Source: Methanosarcinaceae archaeon (lineage in GTDB: Archaea > Halobacteriota > Methanosarcinia > Methanosarcinales > Methanosarcinaceae). From it: DNA of 33,745 bases. The position numbers were made by a program, and so were the translations under genes. Shown in pieces: positions 29,538 through 31,660 of this stretch; positions within the stretch are counted from its first letter, which is position 1; the number at the start of each line of letters is the position of its first letter. The stretch is from positions 1-33,745 of the forward strand of contig JAIOTO010000128.1 of the NCBI GenBank assembly GCA_021106765.1. Reading direction: 5' to 3'. The notes under the pieces are model-generated. The model ran no database searches. It was not told where the DNA came from and worked only from the letters and a program-made list of their open reading frames with translations.

Positions 29538-30692
29538 TCAAATTCTATAATCGAGATAGTTTTTCTCAACCCATTCGAAAAAGGATGCTTCTATTAACAT
29601 TTTATTTCCTGCGTCCTTTCGAGCTTGTGTATTTGACGAACCATAACCAACTGTAAAATAGTTTTCTTCTCCCAGTTGCAAATTTAGGAGGGCTAACACA
29701 TCTGAAGAGGTTTCGCGAATCCAACTTGCTCCAGTTACGTCATCAAGTCGGGCACTTAGCAACATTAACAGACCAAAACTGTTTTTCGAAGCTTTGCGTT
29801 TCACATAGTCTATCAATAGTTCATCAGTGTTATTTTTTACTTCCATTGATCTATTTTGGGATTCAGGTTTATAAAATATAATTTCCTTATCATTAATAGA
29901 TACGTTAGAATGTACCGTTTTTTCTTGTATTGGTCTTAGCGTGTCCATTGTAGGATCATATTCAGGATTTTGACCTTTGATAGCACAAAGAGCTTTATGA
30001 GCAGCTTCCTGTTCAGCTTCTATTGCTGAATTCCAAGGCATAGTAGTTATTTTATGTGTTACTCCCTCCAAAGTTATAGAAAAGGGAATTTCGTCTGTAA
30101 ATTGGAATATGATTGAGTGATCGGGCCCTCCATTTCGGGGTGCGGTGGGGATGAACTTACCTATTTCTTTATTAGAAATATTATCGATTTTTCTAATATC
30201 ATTCAAGAACTTGCTTTTGTAATCTTTTGACGGATCAAATATCCCCTCTTTTGATAATTTATCCTGTTTTGTTATGGCAAATTCTATAAATTTACGAACT
30301 ATGGGAGAACATTTATCTAAACCATTCGTTTTAAACGCAGCTCCAATTAAAGCTTCCACTATTTCTGCTAAATCTTTATCTTGTAGAGAACATGTCAAAT
30401 CTGATGAAGTTAAAATACTTGGAATACTCAAATAATCTGCAAATGCTTTGATAGTAGACTCTTTATGAATTGTGTTTTTGCAAGATGTGATATCTCCACT
30501 TGTTTCCCAACCTTTGCTTATCAAATAGTCGTATAAATGTATGTCAATTACTCGATCACCATACAGGGCGAGTTGTTCAAACTTTGCTGTACCGCCGCAT
30601 GATCGGGGACGAATAGCAATTTCGAACAACTGAGGTTCATGTTCAAGTAGAAAAAACTGTTGAATTTCGGTTAAATCTGTCATGTTATCCAT
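29538..30692 (-). CDS. RNase III-like protein with one or two dsRNA-binding domains
   Basis: The 384-residue protein has the RNase III layout. The signature region is KFEQLALYGDRVIDIHLYDY (37-56) and the second catalytic motif is DLAEIVEALIGAAF (107-120). Against E. coli RNase III, E38 and D45 correspond to E39 and D46, but E41 is replaced by Ala42 and D114 by Glu110; E117 is Glu113. A dsRNA-binding domain follows (about 158-240) with KSKFLNDIRKI, GGPDHSIIFQF and EAEQEAAHKALCAIKG. A second, weaker one (about 292-378) ends FTVGYGSSNTQARKDAGNKM. It is AT-rich and lies in the accessory zone. It may be a dsRNA-processing or antiviral nuclease, or a catalytically altered dsRNA binder. The ATG at 30683 is an alternative start. 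Confidence 0.75.
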   Translation of the reverse strand: MDNMTDLTEIQQFFLLEHEPQLFEIAIRPRSCGGTAKFEQLALYGDRVIDIHLYDYLISKGWETSGDITSCKNTIHKESTIKAFADYLSIPSILTSSDLTCSLQDKDLAEIVEALIGAAFKTNGLDKCSPIVRKFIEFAITKQDKLSKEGIFDPSKDYKSKFLNDIRKIDNISNKEIGKFIPTAPRNGGPDHSIIFQFTDEIPFSITLEGVTHKITTMPWNSAIEAEQEAAHKALCAIKGQNPEYDPTMDTLRPIQEKTVHSNVSINDKEIIFYKPESQNRSMEVKNNTDELLIDYVKRKASKNSFGLLMLLSARLDDVTGASWIRETSSDVLALLNLQLGEENYFTVGYGSSNTQARKDAGNKMLIEASFFEWVEKNYLDYRI

Positions 30693-30734: not shown

Positions 30735-30800
30735 TGTACATTTAGTGATTGATACTAATAAACCACTAGTATTTAGTTTCCATCATTGCAGTTCGAACTT

Positions 30801-31093
30801 TTAAGAAAAGTATATGTTTATAGTTTTAGGAACTTTCATGAACAGATCACGATTAATTACCATATTCCCTCCAAAGACTAAAGTAGTATCCTTGCGCCTT
30901 TGGGATGTGCCTATGACTTCTTCAAAAGCTTCGTTCATGCAGACGTTCTTATCCCAGGATCTGGTCCAGGGGTTTCAGGAACTCCAACATGATAATCCCC
31001 ATTAGGCTGGAGATAGTAGCCAGCAATCGCATTGATGAAACTGCCTTCATGATATTTCCCTATGAAGTGCGAAGCATCGGTGCACCAACCGCC
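30801..31093 (-). pseudogene. Decayed gene fragment, possibly glycosyltransferase-like
   Basis: Two overlapping minus-strand frames read like one protein broken by a frameshift near 30975. The first (31093-30938, 52 codons, after a TAA) reads GGWCTDASHFIGKYHEG, SFINAIAGYYLQPNGDYHVG, VPE. The second reads NPWTRSWDKNVC, MNEAFEEVIGTSQRRKD, TTLVFGGNMVINRDLFMKVP, ending at a TAA at 30801. 'FGGNMVINRDLF' resembles a motif in family 2-type glycosyltransferases. In the first frame, sequence upstream of the TAA (LQYCAPVGARTAVL) also looks coding. The identity is uncertain; the decay is clear. Confidence 0.45.
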
Positions 31094-31330: not shown

Positions 31331-31479
31331 TCAATATGTCCTTATCCTAAGGATATACCTTACTTTGCTCCTTTTTGAGTGTTTTGGAGTAATTGAAGCG
31401 GTACTGATGCTGTTTATTTAGTGGAAGTAAGATAATGTCTTAACTACATTTTAAAAATAGCCATTTAAGCACCATCTAA

Positions 31480-31660
31480 CCTTAAATTTGGTACACAACA
31501 TGTTTTGTGTATCATATATGTTACAAAAATGTGTTTATATATCATATAGCCTTGAATTTAGTATACAACATGTTTTGTGTATCATATATGTTACAAAAAC
31601 GTGTTTATATATCATATAGCCTTGAATTTAGTATACAACATTTTTTGTGTATCACATATC
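31480..31660. repeat. 70-bp tandem repeat, about 2.6 copies
   Basis: Units start at 31480, 31550 and 31620. The unit begins CCTTGAATTTAGTATACAAC and contains TTTTGTGTATCATATATG and GTGTTTATATATCATATAG. Copies 1 and 2 differ at a few bases; copy 3 breaks off after about 40 bp at the end of the fic gene. The repeat is very AT-rich and includes an imperfect inverted repeat around ACATGT. No spacers are present, so it is not CRISPR. Confidence 0.9.

Follow-up and report, generated by a model that had tools for sequence, protein, structure and literature searches.

Structure of the locus

The window analysed here is the whole 33,745-nt contig of a Methanosarcinaceae genome. It carries on its minus strand an RNase III-like gene, the features of which are collected in Table 1. 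To the right of the gene lie a full-length fic gene of SoFic type and, running off the contig, the C-terminal end of a type I HsdR. The local GC content at the gene was 35%, compared with 41–54% over 20–28 kb, in agreement with the AT-rich setting near fic and hsdR described in the first-pass annotation.

A 70-bp tandem repeat (2.7 copies, 93% match) was found directly downstream of fic, at 31473–31659. At the contig end, an ORF on the minus strand (3–662) is built from repeats of a PDLSSPDVPAPPAPEFIM-like unit; it probably encodes a repetitive protein at which the assembly stopped. A search with Rfam over the whole window found no family except a tRNA.

Table 1. Coordinates of the RNase III-like gene, its parts and a nearby shared stretch in the window
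Feature	Position	Strand	Basis
RNase III-like gene, 384 aa	29538..30692	-	ORF, stop codon 29538-29540; 44-58% identity to five full-length orthologues
RNase III nuclease domain, residues 7-148	30249..30674	-	PF00636; AlphaFold helices; Foldseek
First signature FEQLALYGDRVID, residues 38-50	30543..30581	-	Alignment to E. coli RNase III; invariant in six orthologues
Second signature AEIVEALIG, residues 109-117	30342..30368	-	Alignment to E. coli RNase III; six orthologues
dsRBD 1, divergent, residues 158-238	29979..30221	-	hhalign; model helix-strands-helix
Linker, residues 245-287, predicted disordered, motif QEKTVHxxxSIxxEELIF	29832..29960	-	pLDDT <50; motif conservation
dsRBD 2-like C-terminal domain with extra helix, residues 293-379	29556..29816	-	Model H-EEE-H; hhalign
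Debris: two stretches with ~90% identity to a contig from a different genus (G070)	30788..31066		blastn

Identity and predicted fold

The protein matched the Pfam RNase III profile PF00636 above its cut-off (E 8.9e-8; 33.3 bits versus 27). It also matched the NCBIfam RNase III model TIGR02191 (E 3.1e-12), at 46.5 bits, below the equivalog cut-off of 166.25 bits. A profile of the six family sequences matched the RNase III of Campylobacter in the PDB (3n3w) with an E-value of 2e-11, spanning the nuclease domain and the dsRBD. Both the curated profile and the family profile thus place the protein in the RNase III superfamily. It is a distant RNase III, and the match is well beyond chance.

An AlphaFold model of the monomer was built from 34 aligned archaeal sequences. 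Its mean pLDDT was 81, and the nuclease helices were mostly at 87–98 by blocks, with the paired-helix fold of RNase III. A Foldseek search against the PDB placed RNase III and Dicer-like entries at the top (E 2.9e-4 and 6.9e-4), with DCL3 as the top match. The TM-scores by target length were 0.69–0.74 for isolated nuclease domains, with 0.74 for that of 3n3w. The RNase III identity assigned in the first-pass annotation was borne out by these profile and fold matches.

The dsRNA-binding domains were more divergent. The Pfam search that recovered the nuclease domain gave no match to the dsRBD model PF00035. On the other hand, hhalign aligned residues 152–243 with the dsRBDs of archaeal RNase III (96.8%, E 2.9e-10), which supplies the C-terminal dsRBD typical of class 1 RNase III. 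In the AlphaFold model this first dsRBD was weaker than the nuclease domain, and its strands were weak.

Residues 293–368 were modelled as a helix, three strands and a helix (pLDDT 78–92 by blocks), and hhalign matched the C-terminal domain to dsRBD over 39 columns (86–87%, E about 4e-6). Profile comparison thus clearly backs the first dsRBD, and this 39-column match with the model moderately backs a second. The dsRBDs proposed earlier were therefore retained, on profile–profile comparison and the model instead of a Pfam match.

Orthologues, a fusion and a remnant

Full-length orthologues were found in five other genomes (G045, G074, G159, G165 and G152). The distribution was sporadic: including the window's own, 6 of the 186 Methanosarcinales genomes carried a full-length gene. 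Our literature search found no paper on this family of archaeal genes; arCOG05836 of Thermococcales has been named as a distant homologue of RNase III (PMC8416519).

Two further loci held parts of the gene. In G070 only the C-terminal part survives, and the stretch that matched is interrupted by one stop codon. In G081, residues 1–242 make up a canonical RNase III with 72% identity to that of L031, and about residues 247–411 match the linker and C-terminal domain of the window family. An apparent remnant of the helix of dsRBD 1 was present at the joint. The linker motif was kept in the orthologues and in this fusion. The fusion protein was modelled without an alignment, which gave a mean pLDDT of 35.5, too low for use.

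The active site

Alignment to E. coli RNase III equated A42 with E41, D46 with D45, E110 with D114 and E113 with E117. The first signature carries A42 and D46 together with E39 (E38 in E. coli), and the second carries E110 and E113. The first-pass annotation had called an alanine at 42 and a glutamate for aspartate (Glu110), and both calls were correct by this alignment.

In E. coli numbering, the residues are E38, A41, D45, S65, T100, E114 and E117. At the four acidic positions of Rnc (E41, D45, D114 and E117) the protein therefore reads A, D, E and E, and two further acidic E. coli positions, E65 and E100, are lost to Ser and Thr. E39, A42, D46, E110 and E113 were identical in all six orthologues, although only 96 of the 384 residues were invariant overall.

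Mutual exclusion of E41 and E114 in archaeal RNase III

The domains of 140 archaeal RNase III proteins were extracted and compared with that of E. coli, and positions 41 and 114 were counted in 137 domains (archaeal plus E. coli). E114 was never found alongside E41 (0 of 63 domains, E. coli included). Among the 74 domains without E41, 56 had E114 and 14 had Thr114. Of 138 archaeal rows that cover the position, 134 have D45; E117 is present in all 138.

Fisher's test on this exclusion was extreme, with the qualification that the rows are related. On a domain tree built without these columns, the E114 type formed three separate clades on the best tree, and the well-supported branches forced only two changes. 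With so few clades and forced changes, the pattern was not significant on phylogeny alone: the kinship-corrected test had too few independent changes.

From these counts, the glutamate seems to have moved from 41 to 114 instead of being lost. Glutamate is one methylene longer than aspartate.

In E. coli RNase III, MgA is bound by E41 and E117 and MgB by D45 and E117, and D114 makes no direct contact with Mg (PMC9291653). The E41A and D114A mutants retain weak activity in excess magnesium, and activity is abolished by changing E117 to K, A or Q (PMC8708148). Mini-III of B. subtilis, which carries Ala41 and Thr114, cleaves dsRNA (PMC4357697). Taken together, the metal-ligand roles, the mutants and the Ala41 of Mini-III suggested that Glu114 may replace Glu41 as the ligand of MgA.

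The first-pass annotation had also raised the possibility of a dsRNA binder that no longer cuts, which might also act by sequestering RNA. The mitochondrial ribosomal protein mL44 is reportedly a relative of RNase III that turned catalytically dead, and mitochondrial large-subunit chains, probably mL44, were among the Foldseek matches. Replacement of E41 by Ala also fits such a protein, as the E41A enzyme of E. coli is weak in activity and low in binding (PMC8708148).

Several observations argue the other way. D45 and E117 are intact, E114 was gained as a matched change, and the site is invariant despite the fast evolution of the family. The two substitutions also occur together, as a matched pair, in other groups of archaeal RNase III, Mini-III works with Ala41, and in G081 the C-terminal module sits on a fully canonical RNase III. 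A dead enzyme is therefore not favoured, and we regard it as quite improbable.

RNase III-like genes in archaea

RNase III has been stated or cited to be absent from archaea or only rarely held by them (PMC8708148, PMC3432209, PMC3510493, PMC5303251), and some mesophilic Euryarchaeota are reported to have gained it by HGT (PMC4571572). At E 1e-3, TIGR02191 matched in 103 of 186 Methanosarcinales genomes, about ten of these only through a dsRBD, and in 150 of 394 genomes of the phylum. With about half of the Methanosarcinales and over a third of the sampled phylum genomes matching, the premise of rarity in archaea fails for this lineage, taking the matches as RNase III-like genes by sequence. 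Such genes are common in the sampled order and phylum, with at least three active-site designs.

Other combinations were seen among these proteins. In L113 (302–1546), an RNase III-like domain with Arg41 and Glu114 is fused behind an AIR carboxylase domain of PurE type (PF00731), and L105 and L115 likewise contain RNase III-like ORFs, of 306–419 aa. Another conserved family of RNase III-like proteins, about 200–244 aa long (L084–L091, L093 and L099) and found in several Methanosarcinales families, has an N-terminal extension and the Ala41 and Thr114 of Mini-III. The same pair of residues is present in the RNase III-like proteins of one genus (L052, L055 and L056), and among solved structures the L052 protein matched Drosha best (E 1e-19).

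In genus g8, where many genomes are of 4–5 Mb, an RNB-domain exoribonuclease carries a dsRBD at its C-terminus, an unusual pairing (L094, 1808–3601; L095, 1602–3395). Both PF00773 and PF00035 were found in the L094 protein.

Horizontal transfer and neighbourhood

Compared with G045, G159 and G152, the window gene had a pS of 0.46–0.48. In the same genomes that of ThrRS was 0.80–0.86, and that of MAT 0.71–0.83 where measured. Between G045 and G159, which belong to different families, the gene pS was 0.29 and the ThrRS pS 0.80. The dN showed the opposite order: 0.32 for the gene and 0.15 for ThrRS between the window and G045, and 0.29 and 0.22 between the window and G152.

A gene pS far below those of ThrRS and MAT, with a dN above that of ThrRS, points to a recent move and fast protein change. 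By these measures the gene is recently transferred and fast-evolving, and the horizontal gain that the first-pass annotation thought possible is supported. In blastn comparisons, the DNA similarity ended about 10–120 nt from the ORF ends in most pairs. This indicated that what moves is essentially one gene. Misbinning was considered as the source of the apparent transfer for G159 and rejected, since a cytochrome-like gene on the same contig shares 61–65% identity with genes from the family to which G159 belongs.

An active enzyme with housekeeping duties in the processing of rRNA or mRNA, apart from any conflict with foreign elements, would parallel what bacterial RNase III does. Against such a role, the full-length gene is sporadic, its low synonymous divergence between families marks recent transfer, its protein changes fast and its neighbours are not conserved. 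More widespread RNase III-like genes are also present in the same archaeal order, a point in favour of this role. On balance we consider it unlikely.

No fixed neighbours accompanied the orthologues. G045 had contractile-injection-like genes and a transposase in this neighbourhood, and G074 had transposase-like fragments. The G081 locus carried repair genes, UvrA-like and related ones; surface-polysaccharide-like genes were present in G165, and G159 held genes of ClpB-, FHA- and kinase-like type. Neighbours outside the profile scans were named by eye. A defence operon was rejected, as the neighbours differ in all full-length copies and at the fusion locus. Downstream of the G159 orthologue, L195 (10706–14959) encodes a 1417-aa protein without a Pfam match at E 0.01; its start resembles a GHKL ATPase by eye.

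The window and G070 (L023, 9273–16604) share, in the same order, the C-terminal region (80%) and stretches of 52 bp and 240 bp (~90%). These probably go back to a single accessory island that passed between genera and of which they are the remains.

The AT-rich accessory DNA, the transposase genes near several copies and the spread between families would also suit cargo or an anti-host factor of a mobile element, which might, for example, cut host antisense RNA to protect the element. Against this reading, the homology is limited to the gene itself, with no shared element around it, and no relatives were found in the viral contigs, plasmids and phages searched. A role for the element instead of host defence is considered unlikely.

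Proposed mechanism and role

The gene is best explained as a mobile RNase III of Methanosarcinales that travels as a single gene and whose product most likely still cleaves dsRNA, with E110 proposed to stand in at the metal site; we give this reading a probability of about two in three. The small number of clades behind the exclusion, the loss of the acids at 65 and 100 and the weak modelled strands of dsRBD 1 count against it. As in other RNase III, two subunits would pair through the nuclease domain, and the duplex would be held by the two dsRBD-like domains on the flexible linker. Each active site would cut one strand by metal catalysis with D46 and E113. E110 would replace the missing glutamate at 42 as the ligand of the first Mg2+, as the mutual exclusion of E41 and E114 suggests.

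The mobility and rapid change of the gene make a defence role plausible. PADLOC defence models gave no match to the protein at E 0.01. Tentatively, and at less than even odds, the enzyme may be an accessory one that destroys dsRNA or sense–antisense duplexes of mobile elements or viruses. A more specific version, which we hold to be rather doubtful, is a single-gene, horizontally spreading immunity factor of methane-cycling archaea that senses and cuts dsRNA, with an alternative metal site in which glutamate 41 is replaced by a glutamate at 114, a design widespread in archaeal RNase III-like enzymes.

A functional exchange of E41 and E114 would amount to a natural experiment in rebuilding the metal site of RNase III, and would caution against labelling such proteins as dead. 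The mobility of the gene and its swappable C-terminal module make a dsRNA-targeting function in archaea directly testable.

Comparison with known systems

With bacterial class 1 RNase III (Rnc of E. coli, Aquifex and Campylobacter), the window protein shares the nuclease fold, the GD and EA signatures, D45, E117 and a following dsRBD. It differs in having Ala for E41 and Glu for D114, in the loss of E65 and E100, in a second dsRBD-like domain on a disordered linker, and in a profile score that falls far short of the equivalog cut-off.

Mini-III (MrnC of B. subtilis) has in common the GD motif with Ala41 and the retained D45 and E117. On the other hand, it is without a dsRBD and has Thr114, whereas the window protein has two dsRBD-like domains and Glu114; of the Mini-III features, Ala41 agrees.

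The single-domain archaeal RNase III-like proteins (for example L006, L016 and L020; about 145–175 aa) share the non-acidic 41, Glu114, D45 and E117. They have no dsRBDs, are far more widespread than the window gene, and form separate clades on the domain tree. The canonical RNase III of Methanosarcinaceae (for example L031 and L030) and the G081 fusion share the RNase III domain and a dsRBD, and G081 also the same C-terminal module. Unlike the window protein, they keep the standard site, E41 with D or N at 114.

Plant RTL2 and DCL3/4 carry two dsRBDs after RNase III. This is the same domain order as in the window protein; these are eukaryotic proteins, and no specific kinship is claimed. The window gene encodes an RNase III variant that is conserved and mobile, with two dsRBD-like domains, a probably rebuilt metal site and, most likely, activity on dsRNA.
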